A stretch of 64,000 nucleotides of DNA from Arenicola marina. Taxonomy: Eukaryota; Annelida; Polychaeta; Arenicolidae. Position 1 is the first letter of the stretch; each line of letters opens with the position of its first letter. Position numbers and translations under genes: made by a program. The notes beneath the pieces were generated by a model, which ran no database searches, was not told the origin of the DNA, and saw only the letters and a list, made by a program, of their open reading frames with translations. The DNA is taken from NCBI GenBank assembly GCA_964019135.1, contig OZ025256.1:20157911-20221910 (forward strand), given 5' to 3'. This document shows, piece after piece, positions 141 through 42,917 of the stretch.

Positions 141-221
141 CGACCGCTCCTGGTGGAAGGCCTGGTGGCCGAGCAGGCACTGTGCTCGAGGGGATTCGCT
201 CCGTGTTCACGTCGGCTGGTG

Positions 222-735: not shown

Positions 736-814
736 CCATGATATTATAGAAGAATGGGGGATTTTGCTTCTTGGAGAGATACCGGGGTTGGAACGTAGAG
801 CTGAGGCAACAATG

Positions 815-4600: not shown

Positions 4601-5454
4601 TTATACCATAATATCGCACAATTTAGAGACGGAGATAATGTTTAATCTATTTTATTACACATGCAGAAATAGACAATGATAATTCGTTCGATTATGTAAT
4701 TGTTGGATCTTAACCTGGAATTTGGTGAGTGACGCTATTGCCAGTGAGCAATCGATCTTAACTAGAGTCTTCCAACCATGGGATTCGATTTTTGTGTTGT
4801 TTGACATACTCGTGGCACGCCGGAATGACGTTTTATCCATGATGTGAAAGCGTTCCGTATGTTATCAAGATAATTGTAGTACGTCGATAATGTGCATATA
4901 TGCGACACGCATTCTAAACTAGCGCAAATAAACCATTGAATAACGGACATTCGCTTTGCACGTCTATATGATAGGAATCCAAGAAGGGGAAACTATTGAA
5001 GAAAAAGCCTCACGAAGCTCTGGCGTCTTGCTTCATCACCTAGAGAAGAACAACAACACGTTCAACTTGTATTCATGTGTCATTTGCTTTCTGCCATGGT
5101 ATTGCAATCCCATTATTTGTCGCATGCTCTGAGCGTTGTGCTGTTGCCGCAATAAGAACATTTTGATAACAAATACATAAATCAGACCAATCAAGATATC
5201 TGAATACTTTCTCTGGATACGACTCTTTCTCTACGTCTTTTCTGCAGAATAAAGCGATTGGACATTGCTTCCGGTTAGGCCAAGGCAGACAGTTTGTCTA
5301 TGAATTAATCTACTTGTTTATTTTAGAATGTCCAAATATGCAAGATATACGCAAATAATAACAATATCATTTAACATTTGCAAAACATTTATTTATTAAT
5401 TCAAGAGTTGTACAATACACCGTTAGTTTCGCTAATTTATATCTTTCTATATTT
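1629..5454. repeat. macrosatellite monomer L1 (long)
   Basis: Left-most monomer, 3826 bp. It begins directly with the L-specific segment, so the array edge falls at the L/S difference point. It has small differences from L2 and L3, for example CCCTTCCGG where the others have CACTTCCGG, a shorter (GA)n run near 1850, and loss of two bases (CAGTTCCAATG against CAGTTGACCAATG) near 2455. Confidence 0.9.
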
Positions 5455-8400
5455 GTCTGTTATATCATGATAATATTATTGGTAAATGGTTGATATATTT
5501 ATATCTAATAGTAGGTATATAATATTATTTGTAACATAGTCACTGTATTGTCGAGGGCCTTGCGGATCGCGTCTGGCCGATCTTATTGCGGTACGTGAAG
5601 AGGAGAGAGAGAGAGATATGTACAGATATATCGAGCGAAATAGGGAGATACAACGTTAGAGATACAGCCAGGAAAGAGAGAGAGAGAGAGAGAGAGATCA
5701 GACGTATTGGTACGCCACGTGACCATGTCCAGCGTCCACCAGTACACACGGCGCCAGTCAAGCCCGCGGTAACCGGTGGCCGCCTGAAACCAAGCTCACT
5801 TCCGGTTCAATCCGAGCGACGTTGGGGAATTTCCGTTTTTAGTCTTGACGTGGGGGAGAGGGGGACGGGGGGGGGGGGGGTGGGAGGGCAGCGGGGTCCG
5901 CTAGGAGTGTGATTACAGTGGCTCTAATTGAATGTCACACACGACAACAGGATCGCCCCAACAGCTTTTAGGCGCCGCGTGTTTTTCAGGGGAATAGTTC
6001 TTGGTATTGTGCTCCCGCTGTGTTGACAGCTGATGGGCGTCTGTCTCTCTCGCTTTAATCAGGGAGACAAAAGTCCCGCAGAAAGCATTGCCGGCCGGGC
6101 GACTGACTGGATAACTTGATTTTACCCCCAACATAATAGGAATGTGATGGAAGGGTGATGCGGCGTAATTGATCTGTGTAATCATGCCAGACAATACTGA
6201 GGAATTAAACTGAGTGGCGGAGTGCTATCTAACGCTACTGATTGGATAAGTATATTTTATTGAATCTCATTGCTGAGAGTTTAAGGAATCAGTTGACCAA
6301 TGTTAAGAGCTAAGGAGTCCCTTTTTATTGCCCATATGTAGCCTAAATATACCTGACGGATTTGGCCAGAGACGCAATAGCATTGAAACATTGTCCAGCA
6401 GAGAGAGGCACAAACTCACCCATACCATTTGTTTTGCCGTCGGCGGCATCAATGACCACACAAGCGATGACCAGTGGGGACAAAGCGATCGAGTAAAAAA
6501 TGTTATCTTGGTCGATAAATGCGGTCCACCTCGTCACAAGATGTCGGGATAATCTACGGCTATGGTTTCAATCAAGAAATATTTTTCATTGCTGGTTGTC
6601 AAATATGGCGCTTTGAAACCGATCCTTTGCAGTCACAAAGCTAAACCAATAGTGGATGGGGATGAAGAGGGATACCAAGGGACAACAAGACCCCCTTCCT
6701 TGGAACATTGGGGACTCCGAGCGTTGTGCTGTGCCTGCAATAAGAACATTTTGATAACAAATACATAAATCAGACAAATAAAGATATCTGCATATTTTCT
6801 TTGGCTACGACTAAGTTTTCTGCAGAATAAAGCGATTGGACATTGCTTCCGGTTAGTCCAAGGAATATGGTTTGTCTAAACATTAATCTATTTGCTTATT
6901 TTAGTGTTTCCAAATGTGCAAGATATACGCCAATATGCTAATATGCATTAAAAATACGCACCACTGCCCTCCATAACCGCCAGACTGTCACATTTCCCAG
7001 GCTTCAAAAACTGGCATAAAAAATTAACTGGCATCGCAGTTCAGAATAACAGTATGGCTTTAGCTCAGATTTAAACGACGAGTTAACCCATGCTGCCCGC
7101 CCCTCTAGCCGCAAATCTTTGCGATCTCCGCCCACAGATATGCCCAATGCTCTCGGGGCTCTCATGTCCCATGCCCCCACGGGCCAAGTGAAGACTCTTC
7201 GACCAATGGGCTTTGACACCGCAAGCTTATTACTGACACGGATGATCAAACGCCGCTCTGTAATCTACTTACATCCTTCGTTCTGTTGCTGAAGCTGAGT
7301 TTTTCGGGCTCCTTTGGCTTCGTCGGTGGATCTCCATTTCTGAAGGAGGCGGCCAGTGGGGAAACAAAATACTTCACTCGCCGTAGAGATCACATGCGGC
7401 TCATCATTTCCGGTTGACGCGTGCGACTTCCGGTGACAGACGCCGCCGAGAGTATCGAAGTGGAAGCCGGAGCATGATAACTACTCTAGTGAAGCCGGAG
7501 GATAATTCCTACTTTAGTACCCCCGCGCTGTCTCGTCGCCACACTCAAGTTATCAACAGAAGATGCATTTGGCTCCTGACTTTAGTGTCGCGGGCTCGTT
7601 TTACTGCCGGCCGCCCGTCCGAGAAGAGGGAAAAAAATGGCCGTCCATACAAATTAACGCGCATGTAGCATAGGATATGTCCCACCGCGCGCCACCGCGA
7701 CATGAGGGTTCTCTCTATAGATCTATATCTCCTTCTCTCTCGATCTATTTCCGTCTTTCCCTCTCTCTCTCTCTCGCGGTCTCTCTATTCTTGTCTCTCT
7801 CTAATTGCCTCACTCCGGCTGCCTGTTTTTATTTGCAGGAACACATATATGGATGAGGATGTGTGTGGGCCGGGGGCGTGGCGGGAGCCCTGACGGGCTT
7901 GGGAGGGGGCGTGGGGGAGATTATCGGGGTGACATTTATTCATGACAGTAAATATCAGAACAAAACGTTGTCATAACAACCAGGATGTCTCTGGGGCGCC
8001 GTGTGCTTTATATCTGCTTTCCTATGTTTTCCATCTTACCTTTAGTTTTCCTCCATAGTAGATCAGAATAAATATGCAATATGAAAAACCTCACAGAATT
8101 GCGTGCATTTATCTCGCGAAAACCCTTGACACACATGAAATATAGTACGCAGAGTGGATATTTCTCACGGTGTGTTCAGGCCTGAAGAGCAAGAAAATCG
8201 TTTCACGGGCCAGACAGAAACATACCAGCCAATCAGAAAACAGCATTTCGTTTTTCGCCGTCTCGGTTGGGAGGAGTTATCGTCCCCAAAAGCCAATCAA
8301 ATCGAATGTTGCAACGAGCGTTTTAGTGCCATGTGCGTTTTTAGCGTTACGCATGATCCTGTTAATAGGCGATTTATTTTGATTGAATGCCGGAGAACAA

Positions 8401-9296
8401 GTAGGGGATCGTGGGAGTTAGGACTCGAAACGGGAATTGCAATTATACCATAATATCGCACAATTTAGAGACGGAGATAATGTTTAATCTATTTTATTAC
8501 ACATGCAGAAATAGACAATGATAATTCGTTCGATTATGTAATTGTTGGATCTTAACCTGGAATTTGGTGAGTGACGCTATTGCCAGTGAGCAATCGATCT
8601 TAACTAGAGTCTGCCAACCATGGGATTCGATTTTTGTGTTGTTTGACATAATCGTGGCACGCCGGAATGACGTTTTATCCGTGATGTGAAAGCGTTCCTT
8701 ATGCTATCAAGATAATTGTAGTACGTCGATAATGTGCAGATATGCGACATGCATTCAAAACTAGCGCAATAAACCATTGAATAACGGACATTCGCTTTGC
8801 ACGTCTATATGATAGGAATCCAAGAAGGGGAAACTATTGAAGAAAAAGTCTCACGAAGCTCCGGCGTCTTGCTTCATCACCTAGAGAAGAGCAACAACAC
8901 GTCCAACTTGTATTGATGTGTCATTTGCTTTCTGCCATGGTATTGCAATCCCATTATTTGTCGCATGATCTGAGCGTTGTGCTGTTGCCGCAATAGGAAC
9001 ATTTTGATAACAAATACATAAATCAGACCAATCAAGATATCTGAATACTTTCTTTGGATACGACTCTTTTTCTACGTCTTTTCTGCAGAAGAAAGCGATT
9101 GGACATTGCTTCCGGTTAGGCCAAGGCAGACGGTGTGTCTATGAAGTAATCTACTTGTTTATTTTAGAATGTTCAAATATACAAGATATACGCAATTAAT
9201 AACAATATCATTTTAACATTTGCAAAACATTTATTTATTAATTCAAGAGTTGTACAATACACCGTTAGTTTCGCTAATTTATATCTTTCTATATTT
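5455..9296. repeat. macrosatellite monomer L2 (long)
   Basis: 3842 bp. The L-specific part (about 5455-6715) carries GA microsatellites, CACGTGACC and CACTTCCGG promoter-like words, and a G run. It is followed by a second, diverged copy (6719-6930) of a 220-bp block that also precedes it at 5128-5350. The remainder matches S monomers. With S1 it makes the first 6.33-kb higher-order unit. Confidence 0.9.
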
Positions 9297-11785
9297 AATT
9301 GAACCTAGTGCAATGAATACACACACGCATCATGGCCACTGTCTGGTTAATATTTCCCTAATGCCGAAGGACAGCATACTCAATGCTAATATGCTTTAAG
9401 AATACGCAACGATGCCCTCCATAACCGCCAGACAGTCACATTTCCCAGCCTCCAAAAACTGGCATAAACAGTCAACTAGCCCCGCAGTTCAGAATAACAG
9501 TGTGGTTAGAGCTCAGATTCAAACGACGAGTTAACCCATGCTGCCCGCCCCTCTAGCCGCAAATCTTTGCGATCTCCGTCCACAGATATGCCCAGTTCTC
9601 TCGGGGCTCTCATGTCCCATGCCCCCACGGGCCACGTGAAGACTCTCCGACCAATGGGCTTTGACACCGAAAGCTTATTACTGACAAGGATGATCAAACG
9701 CCGCCTTGTAATCTACTTACATCCTTCGTTCTGTTGCTGAAGCTGAGTTTTTCGATCTCTTTTGGCTTCGCCGATGGATCTCCATTTCCAAAGGAGGCGG
9801 CCAGTGTGGAAACAAAAAACTTCGCTCGCCGTAGAGACCACACGCGGCTCATCATTTCCTGTTGGTACGGGCGACTTCCGGTGACAGACGCCGCCAAGAA
9901 TCTCGTCGAAGTGGAAGCCGGAGCATGAGTCCTACTCTAGTAAAGCCGGTGCACAATTTCTGCTCTAGTGAAGCCGTAGGAAGGTTCCTACTTTAGTGCC
10001 CCCGCGTTGTTGCGGCTCCACACTTAAGTTATCAACAAAAGATGCATTTGGCTCCTGACTGTAGTGTCGCGGGCTCGTTTTACTGCGGGCCGCCCGTCCG
10101 AGAAGAGGAAAAACAATGGCCGGCCATACAAATTAACGCGCCCTGCATGTAGTATACGATATGTCCCACCGCGCGCCACCGCGAGATGAGGGTTCTCTCT
10201 ATAGATCTATATCTCCTTCTCTCTCCATCTCTTTCCGTCTTTCCCTCTCTCGCTCGGTCTCTATCCCTATTTCTCTCTATTCTTGTCTCTCTCTAATTGC
10301 CTCACTCCGGCTGCCTGTTTTTATTTGCAGGCACACATATATGGATGAGGATGTCTGTGGGCCGGGGGCGTGGCGGGAGCCCTGACGGGCTTGGGAGCGG
10401 GCGCGGGGGAGATTATCGGGGTGACATTTATTCATGACATTAAGTCAGAACAAAACGTTGTCATAACAACCAGAATGTCTTTGCAGCGACGTGTGCTTTA
10501 TATCTGCTTTCCTATGTTTTCCATCTAACTTTTAGTTTTCCTCCATGGTAGATCAGAATAAATATGCAATATGAAAAACCTCACAGAATTGCGTGCATTT
10601 ATCTCGAGAAAACCCTTGACACACATGAAATATAGTACGCAGAGTGGGTATTTCTCACGGTGTGTTCAGGCCTGAAGAGCAAGAAAATCGTTTCACGGAC
10701 CAGACAGAAACATACCAGCCAATCAGAAAACAGCATTTCGTTTTTCGCCGTCTCGGTTGGGAGGATTTATCGTCCACAAAAGCCAATCAAATCGAATGTT
10801 GCAACGAGCGTTTTAGTGCCATGTGCGTTTTTAGCGTTACGCATGATCCTGTTAATAAGCGATTTATTTTGATTGAATGCCAGAGAACAAGGAGGGGATC
10901 GTGGGAGTTAGGACTCGAAACGGGAATTGCAATTATACCATAATATCGCACAATTTAGAGACGGAGATAATGTTTAATCTATTTTATTACACATGCAGAA
11001 ATAGACAATGATAATTCGTTCGATTATGTAATTGTTGGATCTTAACCTGGAATTTGGTGAGTGACGCTATTGCCAGTGAGCAATCGATCTTAACTAGAGT
11101 CTGCCAACCATGGGATTCGATTTTTGTGTTGTTTGACATAATCGTGGCACGCCGGAATGACGTTTTATCCGTGATGTGAAAGCGTTCCTTATGCTATCAA
11201 GATAATTGTAGTACGTCGATAATGTGCAGATATGCGACATGCATTCTAAACTAGCGCAATAAACCATTGAATAACGGACATTCGCTTTGCAAGTCTATAT
11301 GATAGGAATGCAAGAAGGGGAAACTATTGAAGAAAAAGCCTCACGAAGCTCTGGCGTCTTGCTTCATCACCTAGAGAAGAACAACAACACGTTCAACTTG
11401 TATTCATGTGTCATTTGCTTTCTGCCATGGTATTGCAATCCCATTATTTGTCGCATGCTCTGAGCGTTGTGCTGTTGCCGCAATAAGAACATTTTGATAA
11501 CAAATACATAAATCAGACCAATCAAGATATCTGAATACTTTCTCTGGATACGACTCTTTCTCTACGTCTTTTCTGCAGAATAAAGCGATTGGACATTGCT
11601 TCCGGTTAGGCCAAGGCAGACAGTTTGTCTATGAATTAATCTACTTGTTTATTTTAGAATGTCCAAATATGCAAGATATACGCAAATAATAACAATATCA
11701 TTTAACATTTGCAAAACATTTATTTATTAATTCAAGAGTTGTACAATACACCGTTAGTTTCGCTAATTTATATCTTTCTATATTT
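9297..11785. repeat. macrosatellite monomer S1 (short)
   Basis: 2489 bp. In place of the L-specific segment it has about 90 bp starting AATTGAACCTAGTG. Internally it holds three 28-bp subrepeats (AAGCCGG...CTCTAGT-like) near 9915-9995, a pyrimidine tract at 10195-10320 ending in TTTATTTGCAG, and paired CCAATCA boxes near 10720 and 10782. Confidence 0.9.
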
Positions 11786-14700
11786 GTCTGTTATATCATG
11801 ATAATATTATTGGTAAATGGTTGATATATTTATATCTAATAGTAGGTATATAATATTATTTGTAACATAGTCACTGTATTGTCGAGGGCCTTGCGGATCG
11901 CGTCTGGCCGATCTTATTGCGGTACGTGAAGAGGAGAGAGAGAGAGATATGTACAGATATATCGAGCGAAATAGGGAGATACAACGTTAGAGATACAGCC
12001 AGGAAAGAGAGAGAGAGAGAGAGAGAGATCAGACGTATTGGTACGCCACGTGACCATGTCCAGCGTCCACCAGTACACACGGCGCCAGTCAAGCCCGCGG
12101 TAACCGGTGGCCGCCTGAAACCAAGCTCACTTCCGGTTCAATCCGAGCGACGTTGGGGAATTTCCGTTTTTAGTCTTGACGTGGGGGAGAGGGGGACGGG
12201 GGGGGGGGGTGGGAGGGCAGCGGGGTCCGCTAGGAGTGTGATTACAGTGGCTCTAATTGAATGTCACACACGACAACAGGATCGCCCCAACAGCTTTTAG
12301 GCGCCGCGTGTTTTTCAGGGGAATAGTTCTTGGTATTGTGCTCCCGCTGTGTTGACAGCTGATGGGCGTCTGTCTCTCTCGCTTTAATCAGGGAGACAAA
12401 AGTCCCGCAGAAAGCATTGCCGGCCGGGCGACTGACTGGATAACTTGATTTTACCCCCAACATAATAGGAATGTGATGGAAGGGTGATGCGGCGTAATTG
12501 ATCTGTGTAATCATGCCAGACAATACTGAGGAATTAAACTGAGTGGCGGAGTGCTATCTAACGCTACTGATTGGATAAGTATATTTTATTGAATCTCATT
12601 GCTGAGAGTTTAAGGAATCAGTTGACCAATGTTAAGAGCTAAGGAGTCCCTTTTTATTGCCCATATGTAGCCTAAATATACCTGACGGATTTGGCCAGAG
12701 ACGCAATAGCATTGAAACATTGTCCAGCAGAGAGAGGCACAAACTCACCCATACCATTTGTTTTGCCGTCGGCGGCATCAATGACCACACAAGCGATGAC
12801 CAGTGGGGACAAAGCGATCGAGTAAAAAATGTTATCTTGGTCGATAAATGCGGTCCACCTCGTCACAAGATGTCGGGATAATCTACGGCTATGGTTTCAA
12901 TCAAGAAATATTTTTCATTGCTGGTTGTCAAATATGGCGCTTTGAAACCGATCCTTTGCAGTCACAAAGCTAAACCAATAGTGGATGGGGATGAAGAGGG
13001 ATACCAAGGGACAACAAGACCCCCTTCCTTGGAACATTGGGGACTCCGAGCGTTGTGCTGTGCCTGCAATAAGAACATTTTGATAACAAATACATAAATC
13101 AGACAAATAAAGATATCTGCATATTTTCTTTGGCTACGACTAAGTTTTCTGCAGAATAAAGCGATTGGACATTGCTTCCGGTTAGTCCAAGGAATATGGT
13201 TTGTCTAAACATTAATCTATTTGCTTATTTTAGTGTTTCCAAATGTGCAAGATATACGCCAATATGCTAATATGCATTAAAAATACGCACCACTGCCCTC
13301 CATAACCGCCAGACTGTCACATTTCCCAGGCTTCAAAAACTGGCATAAAAAATTAACTGGCATCGCAGTTCAGAATAACAGTATGGATTTAGCTCAGATT
13401 TAAACGACGAGTTAACCCATGCTGCCCGCCCCTCTAGCCGCAAATCTTTGCGATCTCCGCCCACAGATATGCCCAATGCTCTCGGGGCTCTCATGTCCCA
13501 TGCCCCCACGGGCCAAGTGAAGACTCTTCGACCAATGGGCTTTGACACCGCAAGCTTATTACTGACACGGATGATCAAACGCCGCTCTGTAATCTACTTA
13601 CATCCTTCGTTCTGTTGCTGAAGCTGAGTTTTTCGGGCTCCTTTGGCTTCGTCGGTGGATCTCCATTTCTGAAGGAGGCGGCCAGTGGGGAAACAAAATA
13701 CTTCACTCGCCGTAGAGATCACATGCGGCTCATCATTTCCGGTTGACGCGTGCGACTTCCGGTGACAGACGCCGCCGAGAGTATCGAAGTGGAAGCCGGA
13801 GCATGATAACTACTCTAGTGAAGCCGGAGGATAATTCCTACTTTAGTACCCCCGCGCTGTCTCGTCGCCACACTCAAGTTATCAACAGAAGATGCATTTG
13901 GCTCCTGACTTTAGTGTCGCGGGCTCGTTTTACTGCCGGCCGCCCGTCCGAGAAGAGGGAAAAAAATGGCCGTCCATACAAATTAACGCGCATGTAGCAT
14001 AGGATATGTCCCACCGCGCGCCACCGCGACATGAGGGTTCTCTCTATAGATCTATATCTCCTTCTCTCTCGATCTATTTCCGTCTTTCCCTCTCTCTCTC
14101 TCTCGCGGTCTCTCTATTCTTGTCTCTCTCTAATTGCCTCACTCCGGCTGCCTGTTTTTATTTGCAGGAACACATATATGGATGAGGATGTGTGTGGGCC
14201 GGGGGCGTGGCGGGAGCCCTGACGGGCTTGGGAGGGGGCGTGGGGGAGATTATCGGGGTGACATTTATTCATGACAGTAAATATCAGAACAAAACGTTGT
14301 CATAACAACCAGGATGTCTCTGGGGCGCCGTGTGCTTTATATCTGCTTTCCTATGTTTTCCATCTTACCTTTAGTTTTCCTCCATAGTAGATCAGAATAA
14401 ATATGCAATATGAAAAACCTCACAGAATTGCGTGCATTTATCTCGCGAAAACCCTTGACACACATGAAATATAGTACGCAGAGTGGATATTTCTCACGGT
14501 GTGTTCAGGCCTGAAGAGCAAGAAAATCGTTTCACGGGCCAGACAGAAACATACCAGCCAATCAGAAAACAGCATTTCGTTTTTCGCCGTCTCGGTTGGG
14601 AGGAGTTATCGTCCCCAAAAGCCAATCAAATCGAATGTTGCAACGAGCGTTTTAGTGCCATGTGCGTTTTTAGCGTTACGCATGATCCTGTTAATAGGCG

Positions 14701-15625
14701 ATTTATTTTGATTGAATGCCGGAGAACAAGTAGGGGATCGTGGGAGTTAGGACTCGAAACGGGAATTGCAATTATACCATAATATCGCACAATTTAGAGA
14801 CGGAGATAATGTTTAATCTATTTTATTACACATGCAGAAATAGACAATGATAATTCGTTCGATTATGTAATTGTTGGATCTTAACCTGGAATTTGGTGAG
14901 TGACGCTATTGCCAGTGAGCAATCGATCTTAACTAGAGTCTGCCAACCATGGGATTCGATTTTTGTGTTGTTTGACATAATCGTGGCACGCCGGAATGAC
15001 GTTTTATCCGTGATGTGAAAGCGTTCCTTATGCTATCAAGATAATTGTAGTACGTCGATAATGTGCAGATATGCGACATGCATTCAAAACTAGCGCAATA
15101 AACCATTGAATAACGGACATTCGCTTTGCACGTCTATATGATAGGAATCCAAGAAGGGGAAACTATTGAAGAAAAAGTCTCACGAAGCTCCGGCGTCTTG
15201 CTTCATCACCTAGAGAAGAGCAACAACACGTCCAACTTGTATTGATGTGTCATTTGCTTTCTGCCATGGTATTGCAATCCCATTATTTGTCGCATGATCT
15301 GAGCGTTGTGCTGTTGCCGCAATAGGAACATTTTGATAACAAATACATAAATCAGACCAATCAAGATATCTGAATACTTTCTTTGGATACGACTCTTTTT
15401 CTACGTCTTTTCTGCAGAAGAAAGCGATTGGACATTGCTTCCGGTTAGGCCAAGGCAGACGGTGTGTCTATGAAGTAATCTACTTGTTTATTTTAGAATG
15501 TTCAAATATACAAGATATACGCAATTAATAACAATATCATTTTAACATTTGCAAAACATTTATTTATTAATTCAAGAGTTGTACAATACACCGTTAGTTT
15601 CGCTAATTTATATCTTTCTATATTT
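11786..15625. repeat. macrosatellite monomer L3 (long)
   Basis: 3840 bp and nearly identical to L2. The visible differences are the length of the G run near 12200 and single substitutions such as GTATGGATTT against GTATGGCTTT near 13383. This indicates very recent duplication, recent homogenisation, or assembly duplication of the same sequence. Confidence 0.9.
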
Positions 15626-18114
15626 AATTGAACCTAGTGCAATGAATACACACACGCATCATGGCCACTGTCTGGTTAATATTTCCCTAATGCCGAAGGA
15701 CAGCATACTCAATGCTAATATGCTTTAAGAATACGCAACGATGCCCTCCATAACCGCCAGACAGTCACATTTCCCAGCCTCCAAAAACTGGCATAAACAG
15801 TCAACTAGCCCCGCAGTTCAGAATAACAGTGTGGTTAGAGCTCAGATTCAAACGACGAGTTAACCCATGCTGCCCGCCCCTCTAGCCGCAAATCTTTGCG
15901 ATCTCCGTCCACAGATATGCCCAGTTCTCTCGGGGCTCTCATGTCCCATGCCCCCACGGGCCACGTGAAGACTCTCCGACCAATGGGCTTTGACACCGAA
16001 AGCTTATTACTGACAAGGATGATCAAACGCCGCCTTGTAATCTACTTACATCCTTCGTTCTGTTGCTGAAGCTGAGTTTTTCGATCTCTTTTGGCTTCGC
16101 CGATGGATCTCCATTTCCAAAGGAGGCGGCCAGTGTGGAAACAAAAAACTTCGCTCGCCGTAGAGACCACACGCGGCTCATCATTTCCTGTTGGTACGGG
16201 CGACTTCCGGTGACAGACGCCGCCAAGAATCTCGTCGAAGTGGAAGCCGGAGCATGAGTCCTACTCTAGTAAAGCCGGTGCACAATTTCTGCTCTAGTGA
16301 AGCCGTAGGAAGGTTCCTACTTTAGTGCCCCCGCGTTGTTGCGGCTCCACACTTAAGTTATCAACAAAAGATGCATTTGGCTCCTGACTGTAGTGTCGCG
16401 GGCTCGTTTTACTGCGGGCCGCCCGTCCGAGAAGAGGAAAAACAATGGCCGGCCATACAAATTAACGCGCCCTGCATGTAGTATACGATATGTCCCACCG
16501 CGCGCCACCGCGAGATGAGGGTTCTCTCTATAGATCTATATCTCCTTCTCTCTCCATCTCTTTCCGTCTTTCCCTCTCTCGCTCGGTCTCTATCCCTATT
16601 TCTCTCTATTCTTGTCTCTCTCTAATTGCCTCACTCCGGCTGCCTGTTTTTATTTGCAGGCACACATATATGGATGAGGATGTCTGTGGGCCGGGGGCGT
16701 GGCGGGAGCCCTGACGGGCTTGGGAGCGGGCGCGGGGGAGATTATCGGGGTGACATTTATTCATGACATTAAGTCAGAACAAAACGTTGTCATAACAACC
16801 AGAATGTCTTTGCAGCGACGTGTGCTTTATATCTGCTTTCCTATGTTTTCCATCTAACTTTTAGTTTTCCTCCATGGTAGATCAGAATAAATATGCAATA
16901 TGAAAAACCTCACAGAATTGCGTGCATTTATCTCGAGAAAACCCTTGACACACATGAAATATAGTACGCAGAGTGGGTATTTCTCACGGTGTGTTCAGGC
17001 CTGAAGAGCAAGAAAATCGTTTCACGGACCAGACAGAAACATACCAGCCAATCAGAAAACAGCATTTCGTTTTTCGCCGTCTCGGTTGGGAGGATTTATC
17101 GTCCACAAAAGCCAATCAAATCGAATGTTGCAACGAGCGTTTTAGTGCCATGTGCGTTTTTAGCGTTACGCATGATCCTGTTAATAAGCGATTTATTTTG
17201 ATTGAATGCCAGAGAACAAGGAGGGGATCGTGGGAGTTAGGACTCGAAACGGGAATTGCAATTATACCATAATATCGCACAATTTAGAGACGGAGATAAT
17301 GTTTAATCTATTTTATTACACATGCAGAAATAGACAATGATAATTCGTTCGATTATGTAATTGTTGGATCTTAACCTGGAATTTGGTGAGTGACGCTATT
17401 GCCAGTGAGCAATCGATCTTAACTAGAGTCTGCCAACCATGGGATTCGATTTTTGTGTTGTTTGACATAATCGTGGCACGCCGGAATGACGTTTTATCCG
17501 TGATGTGAAAGCGTTCCTTATGCTATCAAGATAATTGTAGTACGTCGATAATGTGCAGATATGCGACATGCATTCTAAACTAGCGCAATAAACCATTGAA
17601 TAACGGACATTCGCTTTGCAAGTCTATATGATAGGAATGCAAGAAGGGGAAACTATTGAAGAAAAAGCCTCACGAAGCTCTGGCGTCTTGCTTCATCACC
17701 TAGAGAAGAACAACAACACGTTCAACTTGTATTCATGTGTCATTTGCTTTCTGCCATGGTATTGCAATCCCATCATTTGTCGCATGCTCTGAGCGTTGTG
17801 CTGTTGCCGCAATAAGAACATTTTGATAACAAATACATAAATCAGACCAATCAAGATATCTGAATACTTTCTCTGGATACGACTCTTTCTCTACGTCTTT
17901 TCTGCAGAATAAAGCGATTGGACATTGCTTCCGGTTAGGCCAAGACAGACAGTTTGTCTATGAAGTAATCTACTTGTTTATTTTAGAATGTCCAAATATG
18001 CAAGATATACGCAAATAATAACAATATTATTTAACATTTGCAAAACATTTATTTATTAATTCAAGAGTTGTACAATACACCGTTAGTTTCGCTAATTTAT
18101 ATCTTTCTATATTT
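15626..18114. repeat. macrosatellite monomer S2 (short)
   Basis: 2489 bp, the same length as S1 and nearly identical over most of its length. Substitutions cluster in the last 350 bases (for example CCCATCATTTG near 17770 and CAAGACAGACAG near 17940). Confidence 0.9.
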
Positions 18115-20529
18115 AATTGAACCTAGTGCAATGAATACACACACGCATCATGGCCACTGTCTGGTTAATATTTCCCTAATGCCGAAGGACAGCATACTCA
18201 ATGCTAATATGCTTTAAGAATACGCAACGATGCCCTCCATAACCGCCAGACAGTCACATTTCCCAGCCTCCAAAAACTGGCATAAACAGTCAACTAGCCC
18301 CGCAGTTCAGAATAACAGTGTGGTTTTAGCTCAGATTCAAACGACGAGTTAACCCATGCTGCCCGCCCCTCTAGCCGCAAATCTTTGCGATCTCCGTCCA
18401 CAGATATGCCCAGTTCTCTCGGGGCTCTCATGTCCCATGCCCCCACGGGCCACGTGAAGACTCTCCGACCAATGGGCTTTGACACCGAAAGCTTATTACT
18501 GACAAGGATGATCAAACGCCACCTTGTAATCTACTTACATCCTTCGTTCTGTTGCTGAAGCTGAGTTTTTCGATTTCTTTTGGCTTCGCCGATGGATCTC
18601 CATTTCCAAAGGAGGCGGCCAGTGTGGAAACAAAAAACTTCGCTCGCCGTAGAGACCACACGCGGCTCATCATTTCCTGTTGGTACGGGCGACTTCCGGT
18701 GACAGACGCCGCCAAGAATCTTGTCGAAGTGGAAGCCGGAGCATGAGTCCTACTCTAGTAAAGCCGGTGCACAATTTCTGCTCTAGTGAAGCCGTAGGAA
18801 GGTTCCTACTTTAGTGCCTCCGCGTTGTTGCGTCTCCACACTTAAGTTATCAACAAAAGATGCATTTGGCTCCTGACTGTAGTGTCGCGGGCTCGTTTTA
18901 CTGCGGGCCGCCCGTCCGAGAAGAGGAAAAACAATGGCCGGCCATACAAATTAACGCGCCCTGCATGTAGTATACGATATGTCCCACCGCGCGCCACCGC
19001 GAGATGAGGGTTCTCTCTATAGATCTATATCTCCTTCTCTCTCCATCTCTTTCCGTCTTTCCCTCTCTCGCTCGGTCTCTATCCCTATTTCTCTCTATTC
19101 TTGTCTCTCTCTAATTGCCTCACTCCGGCTGCCTGTTTTTATTTGCAGGCACACATATATGGATGAGGATGTGTGTGGGCCGGGGGCGTGGCGGGAGCCC
19201 TGACGGGCTTGGGAGCGGGCGCGGGGGAGATTATCGGGGTGACATTTATTCATGACAGTAAGTCAGAACAAAACGTTGTCATAACAACCAGAATGTCTTT
19301 GCAGCGACGTGTGCTTTATATCTGCTTTCCTATGTTTTCCATCTTACTTTTAGTTTTCCTCCATGGTAGATCAGAATAAATATGCAATATGACAAACCTC
19401 ACAGAATTTCGTGCATTTATCTCGAGAAAACCCTTGACACACATGAAATATAGTACGCAGAGTGGGTATTTCTCACGGTGTGTTCAGGCCTGAAGAGCAA
19501 GAAAATCGTTTCACGGGCCAGACAGAAACATACCAGCCAATCAGAAAACAGCATTTGGTTTTTCGCCGTCTCGGTTGGGAGGATTTATCGTCCACATATC
19601 GTCCTGTTAATAAGCGATTTATTTTGATTGAATGCCGGAGAACAAGGAGGGGATCGTGGGAGTTAGGACTCGAAACGGGAATTGCAATTATACCATAATA
19701 TCGCACAATTTAGAGACGGAGATAATGTTTAATCTATTTTATTACACATGCAGAAATAGACAATGATAATTCGTTCGATTATGTAATTGTTGGATCTTAA
19801 CCTGGAATTTGGTGAGTGACGCTATTGCCAGTGAGCAATCGATCTTAACTAGAGTCTGCCAACCATGGGATTCGATTTTTGTGTTGTTTGACATACTCGT
19901 GGCACGCCGGAATGACGTTTTATCCATGATGTGAAAGCGTTCCGTATGCTATCAAGATAATTGTAGTACGTCGATAATGTGCATATATGCGACACGCATT
20001 CTAAACTAGCGCAAATAAACCATTGAATAACGGACATTCGCTTTGCACGTCTATATGATAGAAATGCAAGAAGGGGAAACTATTGAAGAAAAAGCCTCAC
20101 GAAGCTCTGGCGTCTTGCTTCATCACCTAGAGAAGAACAACAACACGTTCAACTTGTATTCATGTGTCATTTGCTTTCTGCCATGGTATTGCAATCCCAT
20201 TATTTGTCGCATGATCTGAGCGTTGTGCTGTTGCCGCAATAAGAACAAATACATAAATCAGACCAATCAAGATATCTGAATACTTCTCTGGATACGACTC
20301 TTTCTCTACGTCTTTTCTGCAGAATAAAGCGATTGGACATTGCTTCCGGTTAGGCCAAGGCAGACAGTTTGTCTATGAATTAATCTACTTGTTTATTTTA
20401 GAATGTCCAAATATGCAAGATATACGCAAATAATAACAATATCATTTAACATTTGCAAAACATTTATTTATTAATTCAAGAGTTGTACAATACACCGTTA
20501 GTTTCGCTAATTTATATCTTTCTATATTT
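18115..20529. repeat. macrosatellite monomer S3 (short, deleted)
   Basis: 2415 bp, 74 shorter than S1/S2. Most of the loss is one deletion near 19597 that removes the second CCAATCA box and following sequence; a smaller loss is near 20248. It is otherwise clearly the same monomer with more substitutions than S1/S2. Confidence 0.9.
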
Positions 20530-23415: not shown

Positions 23416-24689
23416 TCGTTGCCATTCCTCTTGTTGCGTCTTATTCCCAAGCACCTAGTTATCTACGAGGCCCTGCAATTTTCTTCTTCATCCCCTTAGG
23501 AATCCTAGTAGAGCCAGGTTAAGTCTCGTGGCTTAACATCTCGTACATATCCCCGGTGTCGTCGCTACCCCATGTGACTGTTCCCGCCAGGTCTCCATTC
23601 CATTCCCTGCCGTCTCTTGCTGACTGCAGCGAAACGATTTCAGCAAATTACTTTTTTCTCTCGTCTGTGCCGACCCATAATAACTGAAGTAATTACTCGT
23701 TCTATATGCTCTCTGTGATTTTCATGATGTTGATGAAATCGTTTCATCCCTTGTCAACAAGTAGCAGAGATTGTTCTCTTTCTGAAGATATGTTTGCTAT
23801 GTAGTTAAATACCTGAAGACACACACAAATGCAGATGTCAAATGTATATAAAGGTGTGAAAATCGTCTTGGGCTGCTTAGAGGCTGTTTAGAGGCTGAAA
23901 TACAAGCTGGATATTCTATCGAAGGCTCTGCCGCTTGTGTTCTGCATATATCACCCATGGGCGCGGAGTTATAACATGTGACATGTCTAGGTACCATAAT
24001 GGTATTATTGAGCGATTAACATATGTCATACGCATTCATGCGGTGATTGAGCGTAGATCAATGTTCCACGGATTGAGTGAATTTCAATCTTCATTAGTGT
24101 AATTGATTAGTTAATGTATCTATGTTTCCAGAACTAGACCGGGGAGACCGAGGCGTATACCTCAGAGTGGCTGCAGTCCTGGTAAATATCATATCAATAA
24201 CAACATTATCATTGTTATGACGTATCACATGGAGTTTTAGTAAAGCGTGGGCACTACCTAATTCATGTCTATAATTTGTAATGTCTGCATGAAGTTGAAT
24301 TGTCTGGTTTATTACATGCCGTGTTTCATGTATCGTCCACTCATCCTACATGTCATGCACGTGATTAGTAGTAAATTAGTCGGAACTTTATATTTATTTC
24401 AAACATTCCTTGAGGTAAACAGCCTACTACTGTGGCCCTTTCACGTTATTTTTTTGTTTCTACTTGTATCTGTATAGATCCAGTTGTGAAGTTTTATATT
24501 TTACGTTAGCGTATAAGCTTCGGCTTCTGCTGTTGTCTATGTAATATATGTTTGTTTACTTGTGATGCATACCCTTGGACAATAAGCGTTATTATTAAGG
24601 GGATGTCCTTAAACGGGTGTGCTTCAATGACGTCATTTACGTCATCCTTCCCTGATTATAAGATATCCCTTCTAAATTTCCATGATGGG

Positions 24690-25110
24690 TGATCTAATAT
24701 CTTGGCTGATATCTGGTTTAATATCGCTTGAAATTGGTTTTAATATCGCCTGATTTCGGACTTTATATCGCCTGAAATTGACTTTAATATCGCCTCATAT
24801 TGATATCGCCTGAAATTGACTTTAATATCGCCTGATATTGATATCGCTTGAAATCAGATTTAATGTTGCCTGATATCAGATTTGACATTGCCTCATATCA
24901 GATTGGATATCGCCTGATATCAGATTGGATATCGCTTGATATTTACTCTGATATCGAGTGATATGTTCTCTGGCATATATTATCTGCTTTGATATCGCCT
25001 GATAAGCCTCATAATTATATAATACTAAGATAATAGTATCCATATTTTAGTCTTGCTTTTATTTCTTGCCATCTGCTCTGGTATCGCTTGATAAGCCTGA
25101 TGGCTGCTTT
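24690..25110. repeat. degenerate GATATCGCCTGATAT repeat
   Basis: Irregular tandem repeat built on ATATCGCCTGA(A/T)AT words with spacers of about 15-32 bp. It lies immediately upstream of the first visible glutamate-receptor exon. Confidence 0.75.
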
Positions 25111-25340
25111 GAAACCCCTGCCACGTGTGTGAAATTCCGCATATTCTTTCCGACATAACCTTAAATGTCAATACAATAATCTTTTACTGGACCATGTTAA
25201 CACAGCAGTACTTAATAACATGCACCGTAGATAGACAAAAGCAACAGGTTGAGAACCGCAGTTGTAGTGGCTATAGCAATGGATGCCACCGTTATAATAT
25301 ATATATTTATTTAATAGAAAGAATACATATGTTTCTCCAG

Positions 25341-27406
25341 ATCGAGCCCTATGTGATGCCGGATCCCGCTCCCAGGAACGCCAGCGCCCCCTACGACTCG
25401 GACGTCAAGTATGTCGGGTACATCGTGGACATTCTGGATCGTATCACGGACATGCTGGGACTCCAGTACAAGATCATTCCGGAGGCCAATGACGACTACG
25501 GCTTCCGACGATCTGATGGGACGTGGAGCGGCCTCATTGGACAAGTGGTCCGCAGGGTATGTCAGCAGGGGGGCGGGGGAGGGGGGGGGGGTGATGGGAC
25601 GTTGAGCGGCCTCATAGGACAAGTGGTCCGCAGGGTATGTCAGCAGGGGGGCGGGGGAGGGGGGGGGGGTGATGGGACGTGGAGCGGCCTCATAGGACAA
25701 GTGGTCCGCAGGGTATGTCAGCAGGGGGGCGGGGGGGGGCGATGGGACGTGGAGCGGCCTCATTGGACAAGTGGTCCGCAGGATATGTCAGCAGGGGGGA
25801 GTGCGTGGGGGGGAGGGGGGTATTTCGATAAACGGGTTGATTCTACCCAAACTTTCCTCATATAACCGACTAGAGCAATAACGTTCCACACTCCGAGCTA
25901 AGCTCCGCCCACGCTTGTCACTCCGACACCAAGCCCCGCCCACGCTTGTCACTCCGACATTAAGCCCCGCCCACGCTTGTCACTCCGACACCAAGCCCCG
26001 CCCACGCTTGTCACTCCGACATTAAGCCCCGCCCACGCTTGTCACTCCGACACCAAGCCCCGCCCACGCTTGTCACCCCGACACCAAGCCCCGCCCACGC
26101 TTGTCACTCCGACACCAAGCCCCGCCCACGCTTGTCACTCCGGGCTAAGCCCCGCCCACGCTTGAGTCCTTTTTCTTAAAGCGTGACTATGAAATTGACA
26201 AGGATAGCTGATGGTAGGTACAAGTGAAAAGTACTCATGTCTGAAACTGACAAGATTGGCTGGTTATTCAGGACGCTTTAACCACTTTTGGTCATGTAGC
26301 GTCAATGGGAGAAGGAAGGGAGAGTGGAGCCATGTCTCCGGGGGTAACCCCCTACTCTTTACGAAGAAAGACATGGGATCTTTATTCTGCGACCATACAA
26401 ACATGGCTACAGCAGGGCTCGAACCACCGACCCACGCGCCGTTAGGCTCTCAGGCCGCCAGAGCACTCAATGCGAGCGCTCTAGCCCATTGAGCCGTTGC
26501 ACCGGCCCCTGAAACTGACAAGAAAGTGACATGTTGTTTAATTTGTTGGACTTGTTTGTATGACAATAACGCACATGGAAGACCTTTTCGCCATATGATT
26601 CGATAAAAGCGACAGTCAATATTTGGCTTTTACAGCTGTTTGTTGTTTAAAACTTATTGGGCATTACATTCTGACATTTTCTTTTTGGCTTTTAGGAGGC
26701 AGATTTAGCAGCGGCGCCGTTATACATAACCGAACAGCGAGCAGAAGCCGTTGACTTCTCTATGCCCTTCCTGGAAGTTCAGGCCACCATGTTGTTACAC
26801 CGGCCGCCAACAGAACACCCGCTGCCCTTTAAGTCCGCGGAAGACCTCATCAGTCAGACTAGATACCGCTTCGGAACGCTAAAGTCGGGCATGGTGAGCC
26901 GAGCTTTCCGACAGACTAACAACACGATATACCAAAGACTCTGGACGCGTATAAATCGATTCCCAAGCAAGGTGCTCACGGAGACGAACGAGGAAGGAAT
27001 ACAACTGGCCCGACAAGAGCGATTTATCTTCATTTTACCGGCGCCAATCGGAGAATACGTCGCTAGAGACTGCGAGCTCATCACCATGGATAAGTTCCTT
27101 ATGAAGCGCCATTTTGCCTTTGCTCTTCCGAAACCTTACCTGCATGGTACTTCAGGGTTGATGCCGCAGTTGAACAAGATTTTACTGCTCCTCAAGGAGC
27201 AAGGATTCCTGGAGAATGTGTATCGCAAGTGGTGGACCAAAGGGAAGAAGTGTAATGGCGTGCAGAGTAGTAAGATGTATAGTTTGAATTCCACTGGCGC
27301 GGTGACTTCTGGGAGCGCTTGGGTTGTGGTAACTTTACAGCTGGCGTTCCACTGGCGAATATTGATGCTTCGCGCTAGTCACGTGTCGCTTTATACACGA
27401 CAGTGA
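25341..27406 (+). CDS. Pore-less ionotropic glutamate receptor-like ligand-binding protein (3' part, 2 exons)
   Basis: Spliced from 25341-25556 and 26696-27406. The first exon follows TTTCTCCAG, the donor is AGG|GTATGT, and the second exon follows GGCTTTTAG; the junction is phase 0. The joined 308-residue stretch matches the iGluR ligand-binding core: lobe S1 with EPYVM (2-6), KYVGYIVDIL, and APLYITEQRAEAVDF (79-93), whose Arg87 is the alpha-carboxylate contact; then lobe S2 with SAEDL (119-123), Glu192 in the GEY word, and a Cys198/Cys258 pair placed as the conserved S2 disulphide around KWW. In the family, S1 is followed by pore helices M1-M3. Here S1 passes through HRPPTEHPLPF straight into S2 inside one exon, so the channel is absent. 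There is no clear M4: the 50-residue tail has only a weak hydrophobic run (AWVVVTLQLAF). Upstream exons (start, signal peptide, any amino-terminal domain) were not found. It is probably a secreted or lipid-/tail-anchored amino-acid binder, or a decoy; this is inference. Confidence 0.85.
25515..25800. repeat. tandem duplication of the exon 3' end plus splice donor, 4 copies
   Basis: The last 42 bases of the first iGluR exon plus about 36 bases of intron start, including the G-rich run, recur at 25515, 25593, 25671 and 25741 (units 78, 78, 70 and about 60 bp). Copies 1-3 keep CGCAGG|GTATGT; copy 4 has CGCAGGATATGT and has lost the GT. The second unit changes the conserved Trp of the TWSGLIGQVVRR word to Leu. 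The first two units are multiples of three and stay open. Confidence 0.9.
25891..26166. repeat. 31-bp minisatellite with nine EGR-type sites
   Basis: Nine units of CTCCGACACCAAGCCCCGCC(CACGCTTGTCA), the first one base short. Each contains CGCCCACGC, the reverse complement of the consensus EGR/Zif268 site GCGTGGGCG. It lies in the iGluR intron. A single unit of the same sequence stands in methyltransferase intron 1 at 54829. Confidence 0.9.
26139..26625. repeat. dispersed repeat copy A (in iGluR intron)
   Basis: From GGCTAAGCCCCGCCCACGC through TTGAGTCCTTTTTC to GATAAAAGCGACAGT this matches 54829-55035. It is interrupted by the SINE at 26256-26508. Family unknown; no coding capacity. Confidence 0.8.
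26256..26508 (-). mobile_element. tRNA-derived SINE, minus orientation
   Basis: 253 bp bounded by perfect 15-bp target-site duplications CTGAAACTGACAAGA (26241-26255 and 26509-26523). Read on the minus strand it begins GGGGCCGGTGCAACGGCTC and has box A-like (GGCTCAATGGGCTAGAG) and box B-like (GGTGGTTCGAGCCC) RNA polymerase III promoter words. A family-specific body follows (AAAGATCCCATGTC...TTACCCC) and the 3' end is ...GTCCTGAATAACCAGCC. Two further copies are at 29763 and 43084. Confidence 0.92.
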
Positions 27407-31367: not shown

Positions 31368-31567
31368 NNNNNNNNNNNNNNNNNNNNNNNNNNNNNNNNN
31401 NNNNNNNNNNNNNNNNNNNNNNNNNNNNNNNNNNNNNNNNNNNNNNNNNNNNNNNNNNNNNNNNNNNNNNNNNNNNNNNNNNNNNNNNNNNNNNNNNNNN
31501 NNNNNNNNNNNNNNNNNNNNNNNNNNNNNNNNNNNNNNNNNNNNNNNNNNNNNNNNNNNNNNNNNNN
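31368..31567. other. assembly gap (200 N)
   Basis: Exactly 200 undetermined bases, a typical arbitrary scaffold-gap size. The real distance is unknown. The right flank is a C run and a G run follows at 31630, suggesting the assembly broke in poly-G/C sequence. Confidence 0.99.
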
Positions 31568-38915: not shown

Positions 38916-40378
38916 GTATGGGATAGTGCTGTCATTGCGCGAAGGCGAATGGGATAGTGCTATCATTGCGCGAAGGCGAATGGGATAGTGCTATCATTGC
39001 GCGAACGCGTATGGGATAGTGCTATCATTGCGCGAAGCCGAATGGGATAGTGCTATCATTGCGCGAAGGTGAATGGAATAGTGCTATCATTGCGCGAAGG
39101 CGAATGGGATAGTGCTATCATTGCGCGAACGCGTATGGGATAGTGCTATCATTGCGCGAAGGCGAATGGGATAGCACTATCATTGCGCGAAGGCGAATGG
39201 GATAGTACTGTCATTGCGCGAAGGCGAATGGGATAGTGCTGTCATTGCGCGAAGGCGAATGGGATAGTGCTATCATTGCGCGAAGGCGAATGGGATAGTG
39301 CTATCATTGCGCGAAGGCGAATGGGATAGTGCTATCATTGCGCGAAGGCGAATGGGATAGTGCTATCATTGCGCGAAGGCGAATGGGATAGTGCTATCAT
39401 TGCGCGAAGGTGAATGGAATAGTGCTATCATTGCGCGAAGGCGAATGGGATAGTGCTATCATTGCGCGAACGCGTATGGGATAGTGCTGTCATTGCGCGA
39501 AGGCGAATGGGATAGTGCTATCATTGCGCGAACGCGTATGGGATAGTGCTATCATTGCGCGAAGTCGTATGGGATAGTGCTATCATTGCGCGAAGGCGAA
39601 TGGGATAGTGCTATCATTGGGCCAAGGCGAATGGGATAGCACTATCATTGCGCGAAGGCGAATGGGATAGTACTGTCATTGCGCGAAGGCGAATGGGATA
39701 GTGCTATCATTGCGCGAAGGCGAATGGGATAGTACTGTCATTGCGCGAAGGCGAATGGGATAGTGCTATCATTGCGCGAAGGCGAATGGGATAGTACTGT
39801 CATTGCGCGAAGGCGAATGGGATAGTGCTATCATTGCGCGAAGGCGAATGGGATAGTACTGTCATTGCGCGAAGGCGAATGGGATAGTACTGTCATTGCG
39901 CGAAGGCGAATGGGATAGTGCTATCATTGCGCGAAGGCGAATGGGATAGTACTGTCATTGCGCGAAGGCGAATGGGATAGTGCTATCATTGCGCGAAGGC
40001 GAATGGGATAGTACTGTCATTGCGCGAAGGCGAATGGGATAGTGCTATCATTGCGCGAAGGCGAATGGGATAGTACTGTCATTGCGCGAAGGCGAATGGG
40101 ATAGTACTGTCATTGCGCGAAGGCGAATGGGATAGTGCTATCATTGCGCGAAGGCGAATGGGATAGTACTGTCATTGCGCGAAGGCGAATGGGATAGTGC
40201 TATCATTGCGCGAAGGCGAATGAGATAGTGCTGTCATTGCGCGAAGGCGAATGGGATAGTGCTATCATTGCGCGAAGGCGAATGGGATAGCACTATCATT
40301 GCGCGAAGGCGAATGGGATAGTACTGTCATTGCGCGAAGGCGAATGGGATAGTGCTATCATTGGGCCAAGGCGTATGG
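38916..40378. repeat. 31-bp minisatellite, about 47 copies, with higher-order structure
   Basis: Unit GCGCGAAGGCGAATGGGATA(GTGCTATCATT). Two main variants, GTGCTATC (B) and GTACTGTC (A), alternate in the right half as ABABABA, ABABABA, ABAB, with starts at 39667, 39885 and 40102, giving a period of about 217 bp. In the left half a variant block (AAGGTGAATGGAATAG followed by AACGCGTATGGG) recurs 11 units apart (39067 and 39411). No spacers, so it is not a CRISPR array. From 40379 to 41059 nothing is recognised. Confidence 0.95.
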
Positions 40379-41582: not shown

Positions 41583-41858
41583 TACACACATAGAGCGCCG
41601 TGGACACCGTGTTACTGTTACCACCGTGACGCTAGTTGCAAATATGCATCAGCAAAAGCAGCAGCATCAGTAATAGGATCAACAACAGTAACAACATCAG
41701 CAGTAGCCTCAACGGCCTCAGAATCAGCGGCCCCGGCCCCATTACTAAGAGAAGCATCGTCACCGTTACCACCACCATCGCCATCCTCGGCATCCCCATC
41801 CCCATTACCATCACCATCGCCTTCACCATCAGAAGCAGCTACACCGACGTCATCAGCC
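41583..41858 (+). other. open upstream extension, Ser/Thr/Pro/Ala-rich
   Basis: In frame with the membrane protein and free of stops, with CCATCACCATCG-type codon runs. Several CAG words (for example ATGCATCAG at 41650) could be splice acceptors. It could be the outer stalk of the protein, 5' untranslated sequence, or a degenerate trinucleotide repeat. Confidence 0.35.
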
Positions 41859-42917
41859 ATGTTACGTCACACGTTTATCTTTGGGGTTGTCATCCCCACG
41901 GCCATCACCGTCATCTCCTTCCTGGCTTTCCTCGTCTGCTGGTACAAACTCAACATGAGGGACCGCCTCTTCAAGTCGCGCTTTTACAAGAAGCACTTCC
42001 AGAAGATGACTCCGATAGCGACCGGACCCCAGGAGAAGAAATCCGCCAGCTACCGCCACCTGAGGCCCCTCTCAGATGGAGCCGGGGGCGGTCCACCCGA
42101 CGCCGGTGGCAGAGGAGGCCACATGCCGTCTGGGACCCCGGGCGGTTGCGGGGATTGTGGTGGAGGGGTGGGCGGGGTGGGTTATCAGCACACTGGTGCG
42201 GGAACCTGGGGCGGAGGGGATATCATTCCCGGCACGTGGAACATAGGTGGTGGCAATCGCGGGGATGACGCGGCTTCCATTAGCGACCTTGACCTCGGTA
42301 ACCCCTATGAACCGGAGTCGAGCGCCGACGAGCGGGCGCTGGGGGACAAATACAAGGAGCGGTTTTCATTGGCGGAGCGATACTGTCACCGGTTAGTCGG
42401 CTTCCGGCCTCAGCACTCACTCGGCTCCCGCGAACTGCTAATGGCAGCGGAGAAATACGTGGCATCGGAAAACGCACTCGCGGGATTGCATCCCCAGTGC
42501 GTACCCTCAAACGAGGCAGTGGAGTACCAGCCGGAATGTCTGGATCACCACCACCACCATGTGGCCAAGGACGCCACCGATGAGACCCAAGGATTCGGCA
42601 GCGTTCCCCAGCACGGGGAATACGGTCATTTCGTGTATCAAAGCGACTTGGCCGACAAATGCCAGGACAGACTGCCCCTGTTACGAGGATCGTGGTCCCC
42701 AGTCAAAATTATCACACCTGGAGCCATTCCCAGAGATAAATCATCGCGACAACCCTGGCCAGAGGCGGGAGAAGATACCGCCCAGGTTTTCATTGACGCT
42801 GACGCAAGTTCTGATATCACTGATCCCGAACCCGAAAAATCCGCCGCTGTGAAATACAGACATGATAACTTTGTTTGCAGATCTTCGTCCAACTGCGCAT
42901 GCGCCGAAGCTCAATAA
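41859..42917 (+). CDS. unrecognised single-pass membrane protein (hypothetical, 352 aa)
   Basis: Starts at ATG in GCCATGT and ends TAA TAA. Residues 6-29 are a strong membrane segment (VVIPTAITVISFLAFLVCWY core) after a four-residue leader. It is followed by KLNMRDRLFKSRFYKKHFQK, whose charge predicts an exterior N-terminus and a cytosolic 320-residue tail. The tail is hydrophilic, has a Gly-rich part (about 75-135), a five-His run near 229 and acidic stretches; no enzyme motif is recognised. The frame is open upstream to 41583, encoding a Ser/Ala/Thr/Pro-rich stretch, so an earlier start or upstream exon giving a mucin-like ectodomain is possible. AATAAA overlaps the stop (42914-42919). High GC and steady codon use beside AT-rich flanks support real coding. 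Function unknown. Confidence 0.6.
   Translation: MLRHTFIFGVVIPTAITVISFLAFLVCWYKLNMRDRLFKSRFYKKHFQKMTPIATGPQEKKSASYRHLRPLSDGAGGGPPDAGGRGGHMPSGTPGGCGDCGGGVGGVGYQHTGAGTWGGGDIIPGTWNIGGGNRGDDAASISDLDLGNPYEPESSADERALGDKYKERFSLAERYCHRLVGFRPQHSLGSRELLMAAEKYVASENALAGLHPQCVPSNEAVEYQPECLDHHHHHVAKDATDETQGFGSVPQHGEYGHFVYQSDLADKCQDRLPLLRGSWSPVKIITPGAIPRDKSSRQPWPEAGEDTAQVFIDADASSDITDPEPEKSAAVKYRHDNFVCRSSSNCACAEAQ

Follow-up and report, generated by a model that had tools for sequence, protein, structure and literature searches.

Pore-less relatives of ligand-gated channels are, to our knowledge, rare. Acetylcholine-binding protein (AChBP) is a pore-less binding domain from a ligand-gated channel superfamily, a soluble pentamer of the Cys-loop type, and it changed Cys-loop pharmacology. 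Ionotropic glutamate receptors (iGluRs) are themselves thought to derive from a binding-protein role. A 2018 eLife survey of metazoan iGluRs required at least four residues of SYTANLAAF for a sequence to enter its final phylogeny (PMC6307864), and 12 oyster iGluRs were described with four transmembrane domains (PMC10642201). The protostome chemosensory receptors (IRs), present in annelids and molluscs, lack some glutamate-contacting residues, according to passages of PMC2924276. No description of natural pore-less or GPI-anchored iGluR binding-domain genes was found among the titles and abstract openings that searches of open-licence PubMed Central listed.

A contiguous S1-S2 gene without a pore

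The window is the whole 64,000-nucleotide stretch of DNA analysed (C9:20157911-20221910 of genome G000, which comprises 867,369,267 bases in 762 contigs). An earlier note had read in it an iGluR ligand-binding core with the pore naturally missing, and the gene (Table 1) was confirmed, far beyond chance, as a contiguous S1-S2 domain without a pore. Exon 2 holds an open frame of 236 aa plus stop, behind a canonical acceptor (...cttttag followed by GAG), and all the residues originally quoted from it were verified (EADLAAAPLYITEQRAEAVDF, MLLHRPP, TEHPLPF and SAEDLISQT). Exon 1 has an ag acceptor and a gt donor, is in phase 0 and matched PF10613 (E 1.1e-11).

When exon 2 alone was searched against PDB sequences, S1S2 constructs aligned without interruption over its residues 2-186 (best E 2.7e-26), and full-length receptors matched only from residue 43 onward, that is, S2. 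The joined 308-aa product (exons 1 and 2) had matches to 373 different PDB sequences at E 0.001, led by a GluA4 S1S2 construct (E 5.3e-38); it aligned in one stretch to S1S2 constructs and in two stretches to full-length receptors, with the pore left out. Pfam recognised Lig_chan-Glu_bd and SBP_bac_3 in these exons and found no Lig_chan in them. The gene has the S1S2 glutamate-binding domain of iGluRs. S1 is joined to S2 by RPPTEHPLPFK, a short linker of the kind used in engineered constructs. The direct passage from the end of S1 into S2 and the resemblance to S1S2 constructs, both claimed earlier, were thereby borne out; because the junction lies inside a single open exon, splicing cannot restore the pore, as had also been argued.

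Table 1. Coordinates of the features of the pore-less gene (positions in the window).
Feature	Position	Strand	Description
Tentative upstream exon	24132..24181	+	LDRGDRGVYLRVAAVL, would carry the binding domain's beta-strand 1; flanked by ag acceptor and gt donor, joins exon 1 in phase 0
Exon 1	25341..25556	+	72 aa, first part of lobe S1 (IEPYVM...GQVVRR)
78-bp tandem repeat	25514..25818	+	Built from the exon 1 3' end together with its splice donor; about 4 copies
Exon 2	26696..27406	+	Last part of S1, junction, complete S2, C-terminal tail, stop codon
S1-S2 junction	26804..26833	+	PPTEHPLPFK, from alignment to S1S2 constructs; where the M1-pore-M3 block would sit in an iGluR
C-terminal tail	27254..27403	+	50 residues following the final conserved cysteine; includes a stretch that is GPI-signal-like or weakly transmembrane

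Rat GluA2 and GluK2, used as tblastn queries, gave significant matches in the window solely to exons 1 and 2. No M1-pore-M3 block was found there with these queries, the best match (E 0.44) being at chance level. Lig_chan (PF00060) had at least 101 matches genome-wide, none of those listed lying at a pore-less locus and the nearest lying about 47 kb from one. The genome search with exon 2 and the PF00060 search likewise gave no intact-pore copy at the same locus, which the earlier note had named as a possible refutation. An M4 exon was found, at E 0.05, neither in the C9 regions nor downstream in the window (27001-64000), as anticipated, versus four of four pore-bearing loci on contig C13; one weak match in the paralogue P9.87 corresponded to the part preceding M4 and not to M4 itself. 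The C-terminal tail could be a remnant. The amino-terminal domain (PF01094, ANF_receptor) had 74 matches in the genome, none near the C9 genes, but this says little because none lay near the pore-bearing C13 cluster either.

The tentative upstream exon was obtained with the third and loosest of three successively looser motifs, and since the control gave one match on each of three other strands or stretches, this candidate is at chance level. The sole point in its favour is its position, 1160 bp upstream of exon 1; in the nearest paralogue the corresponding distance is 1111 bp. Such candidates were present in 9 of the 10 pore-less genes of the genome, P19.05a having none with any of the three motifs. 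A signal-peptide exon of the gene was looked for in the window and not found.

Other features of the window were also recorded. The open reading frame at 41583-42914 (444 aa) contains a region rich in Ser, Pro and Thr, a single hydrophobic segment and a basic end, and in this resembles the terminal exon of a single-pass membrane protein; it was rejected as a distant transmembrane exon of the pore-less gene, since exon 2 carries its own stop and the frame had no significant Pfam match. Positions ~1-19500 form a tandemly duplicated, repeat-rich block: near-identical open reading frames recur every ~6.33 kb (e.g. 5535/11866, 8139/14468, 10629/16958), and a 28-bp unit recurs at 3621, 7463, 13792 and 21146. 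Long satellites lie at 60179-63648 (32-bp unit, ~109 copies) and 38918-40378 (31-bp unit, ~47 copies), and a 189-aa frame at 58971-59537 encodes a SAM-dependent methyltransferase domain (Methyltransf_31, E 1.3e-14).

Copies, paralogues and relatives

Exon 2 had 22 matches in the whole genome: 12 on C9, nine on C13 and one on C7. Four of those on C9, at 20.00, 20.08, 20.12 and 20.18 Mb, were copies of the window gene with 100% protein identity (the window holds the last of them, at 24132-27406); they are near-identical, lie 44-76 kb apart on one contig (20.00-20.19 Mb) and are a recent tandem expansion. The 78-bp repeat varies in copy number among them (gap columns in their alignment). At the eight other places on C9 the match spanned the S1-S2 junction, and with one further gene found by tblastn, ten distinct pore-less genes were modelled on this contig. 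All ten models showed a contiguous S1b-S2 exon, ag acceptors, gt donors and an S1a/S1b intron in phase 0, which is a consistency check and not a blind prediction, the model ends having been set by hand at conserved motifs. Deletion of M1-M3 by a one-off assembly error, a possibility raised in the earlier note, is excluded because the four copies and nine other distinct genes all lack the pore.

The matches on C13 and C7 covered S2 or mostly S2. The four C13 loci fetched were pore-bearing (GluA2/GluK2 alignments spanned S1b, pore and S2 in one or more exons), and M3 and S2 were visible at the C7 locus. The position of the S1 intron was common to the pore-less genes and to the pore-bearing C13_26.25. 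Thirty short loci around PF10613 matches were also inspected: 19 entered the M1 region from S1b or contained M1 (two of the 19 being one gene), nine comprised S1 only and were uninformative on the pore, and two were pore-less C9 genes. An additional S1 exon was seen on the pore-less contig (G000:C9:34073238-34073462, minus strand). P19.05b (G000:C9 19055793-19057251 and following) has a Ser/Thr/Pro-rich, mucin-stalk-like stretch of ~370 residues after its binding domain, and then a hydrophobic end. At two pore-bearing loci, L040 and L041 (G000:C13 26.49 and 26.60 Mb), the GluK2 alignment goes straight from residue 665 to residue 751 over 47 bases, as though S2 lacked a segment.

When the four copies were compared, exons 1 and 2 (927 nt together) contained 7 variable sites, ordinary non-coding sequence 31 and the two tandem repeats 3. 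All seven exon differences were synonymous and the four proteins identical, which is why purifying selection on the window gene is concluded. The expected non-synonymous share of random changes is 0.72-0.77, giving a probability of 0.0008-0.0026 for none or one of seven (script) and of about 3e-5 to 1.4e-4 for none of seven (by hand). Gene conversion among the copies could reduce the number of differences, but not alter their kind.

A protein database search with exon 2 alone returned 153 candidates, none of them at E 0.001, probably an effect of the length filter and word choice of that search, whereas the alignment of the ten paralogues did yield relatives. At E 1e-5 the ten-paralogue profile matched at least 10 proteins, eight without Lig_chan (P0001-P0008) and two with it. 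A wider profile matched at least 15 proteins at E 1e-8: two of the known pore-less ones, six new ones (P0011, P0012 and P0016-P0019), four with Lig_chan, P0021, which is cut off at M1, and the bacterial-type P0022 and P0023. Pore-less relatives thus number at least 14. Those named come from the annelid Owenia fusiformis (P0006, P0008) and from Lamellibrachia satsuma (P0018), which we take to be an annelid as well.

P0002, P0011 and P0012 (~315 aa) read as a signal peptide, S1S2, a short linker and a hydrophobic C-terminus; the Owenia protein P0006, also with an apparent signal peptide, ends in a His-rich tail and lacks the hydrophobic end. Signal peptides in these four complete-looking relatives were judged by eye, and none of the four has an amino-terminal domain or an interruption where the C9 genes carry their intron. 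The first three lie on contigs of only 1.2-1.4 kb. These features suggest that the sequences are transcripts.

The tree comprised 23 pore-less rows (10 paralogues and 13 relatives; P0007 was omitted as too short) and 10 pore-bearing ones. On one side of a branch with support that is not strong (91/86) stood 22 of the 23 pore-less rows. The remaining one, P0004 (296 aa, metagenomic), grouped with pore-bearing receptors and is perhaps a second independent loss of the pore or a fragment. A single clade of all 23 was not rejected (AU p 0.445); with P0004 removed the best tree needed two changes, and one change sufficed in 42% of bootstrap trees, so that a single origin of the family is possible. 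The window gene, two C9 paralogues, P0001, P0005 and P0016 together formed a supported group (99/93; six members), and another C9 paralogue paired with P0018 of Lamellibrachia (95/89). Since C9 and database members mix in this way, the subgroups seem to predate the divergence of these species. On these comparisons the window gene is not a lone oddity: it belongs to a multi-gene family, relatives of which occur in at least two annelids.

Binding pocket, C-terminal end and fold

In GluA2, the amino-acid-binding residues are presumably T480, R485, S654, T655 and E705, R485 binding the carboxylate and E705 the amine. The window gene has Y, M, V and P at T480, S654, T655 and E705 and keeps R485 and P478, so the amino-acid-binding set T480/R485/T655/E705 reads Y, R, V, P. 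Its group of six is uniform in proline at E705, isoleucine at M708 and the retained R485 (6/6 each); T480 is replaced by Y, F or L, and both S654 and T655 by hydrophobic residues. Seven other members (P20.54, P0002, P0003, P0011, P0012, P0017 and P0019) keep T480, R485, T655 and E705 in every case, and P0012 additionally retains S654. Across the family the disulphide cysteines were conserved in 23/23 rows and R485 in 22/23. Altered pockets are not confined to pore-less proteins, because the pore-bearing C13 receptors have D in place of E705 and GluK2 has alanine at two pocket positions. The “amino-acid sensor” of the earlier note fits the sister subgroup that keeps the binding residues; for the window gene it is doubtful, since its subgroup lost all of them except the arginine, and a free amino acid is an unlikely ligand of its protein.

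The most hydrophobic 14 residues of the window tail (27323-27364) lie 13 residues before the stop, have a hydrophobicity of 1.45 and are followed by a polar end. A loose cut set at these very values (14-mer with mean Kyte-Doolittle of at least 1.45 within 13 residues of the stop) was passed by 19 of the 23 members, the window gene included (not by P19.05a, P0006, P0004 and P0018). A stricter cut (1.65, 8 residues) was passed by 18 of the 23, the window gene not among them, versus 16/827 windows of domain cores and 18/366 ends of non-gene open reading frames in the window; at 1.9 and 8 residues the figures were 14/23, 8/827 and 17/366. A hydrophobic C-terminal end is therefore a feature of the family, of which the window gene is the weakest case, and it looks like a GPI-anchor signal. 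The product had been thought possibly secreted or tail-anchored; this reading is amended by the GPI-signal-like end of the family, though the window's own tail falls short of the stricter cut. One of the synonymous differences among the four copies lies in the tail (codon 278), so the tail seems to be translated.

Structure models were made for the relatives P0012 and P0001 (AlphaFold2; pLDDT 86.3 and 84.8, pTM 0.77 and 0.80, respectively), with high confidence across the binding domain and low confidence towards either terminus. Their best fold matches in the PDB were GluA ligand-binding domains (8fpc_A, E 5.3e-30, TM by target 0.85; 9s3z_A, E 4.3e-31, 0.92).

Proposed role and comparison with known systems

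The window gene probably encodes a non-conducting extracellular ligand-binding protein descended from an iGluR, within a family that is mostly GPI-anchored. An ancestral receptor would have lost its amino-terminal domain, M1-pore-M3 block and M4. What remains would be a signal peptide, an S1S2 clamshell with the iGluR disulphide, a short linker and, directly before the stop codon, a hydrophobic C-terminal end. This end would direct GPI anchoring in most members, and the Owenia protein with the His-rich tail looks secreted. The clamshell would close on a small ligand outside the cell with no gate to open, and the bound ligand might be buffered, carried, or presented to a partner (a transporter or a true receptor), much as AChBP serves Cys-loop receptors and solute-binding proteins serve bacterial ABC importers. 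One subgroup would bind alpha-amino acids; that of the window gene would bind a carboxylate that carries no free alpha-amino group, because the arginine is kept, the glutamate is replaced by proline and the pocket is hydrophobic.

A soluble secreted protein with no membrane anchor, acting as decoy or carrier like AChBP, would suit the weakly hydrophobic tail of the window gene with its polar end, and P0006 of Owenia offers a precedent; it is nevertheless unlikely, as 18 of the 23 members pass the stricter cut and the synonymous difference in the tail speaks for its translation. GluA binding domains dimerise. The window protein, whose fold is of the GluA binding-domain type and whose genome also encodes pore-bearing relatives, might accordingly pair through this domain with that of a pore-bearing subunit, the tail holding it at the membrane, as an auxiliary or dominant-negative partner; this role is considered quite improbable.

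Two further explanations were weighed. Deletion of the pore in a defunct copy, or its loss during assembly, could be imagined in a repeat-rich locus with tandem repeats and a run of N (31368-31567), but the same state in four copies, in nine other distinct genes and in relatives from other species, together with seven of seven synonymous exon differences, makes a pseudogene or artefact very improbable. Least credible is a bacterial solute-binding protein acquired by horizontal transfer that was never a channel: SBP_bac_3 also matches, and some relatives are named “ABC-type amino acid transport substrate-binding protein” by a source, yet animal AMPA receptors lead the PDB sequence matches, Lig_chan-Glu_bd exceeded SBP_bac_3 in 9 of 10 relatives scanned (the exception, P0019, concerned exon 2 only), the S1 intron lies where it does in C13_26.25, and the iGluR cysteines are present in 23/23 members.

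Returning to a non-conducting, mostly GPI-anchored binding protein, a wider and more tentative proposal is that annelids and their kin possess an ancient class of “glutamate-receptor binding proteins”, GPI-anchored and descended from a ligand-gated channel that has become a solute-binding protein again. Its separate lines, for amino acids and for other carboxylates, would capture ligands of environmental or synaptic origin at the cell surface or present them there. They would be the iGluR counterpart of AChBP, possibly serving dissolved amino acid uptake or as co-receptors of IR-type channels. As part of this proposal, the family may have been passed over because the main metazoan survey dropped sequences without the pore motif; applied as worded in the passages of PMC6307864, its SYTANLAAF filter would remove the entire pore-less family. 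A natural, selected, multi-gene set of iGluR binding domains would supply soluble receptor cores with many pocket variants and would demonstrate a channel reverting to its ancestral binding-protein role, and its two pocket types (amino-acid-type, and arginine-plus-hydrophobic) lead to direct binding predictions.

Engineered S1S2 cores share with the family the short S1-S2 linker and are its top PDB sequence and fold matches, but the family is natural, multi-gene, under selection and equipped with a C-terminal tail and, in complete relatives, a signal peptide. The bacterial family 3 solute-binding proteins have the same clamshell without a pore (Pfam SBP_bac_3) and capture ligands extracellularly, whereas the pore-less family has eukaryotic introns, a disulphide, iGluR-type sequence and no known partner transporter. 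AChBP is likewise the binding domain of a channel superfamily without its pore, but is of unrelated fold and a soluble pentamer, while most members of the pore-less family look membrane-anchored. The chemosensory IRs resemble the family in their divergent pocket, some glutamate-contacting residues being lost (as described in passages of PMC2924276), but combine it with a channel pore, which the family does not have. From AMPA/kainate iGluRs, finally, it differs in lacking M1-pore-M3, M4 and a recognised amino-terminal domain and in the hydrophobic C-terminus at the stop of most members, and with them it shares the S1S2 domain, the conserved disulphide, R485 and the S1 intron position of a pore-bearing receptor of the same genome.
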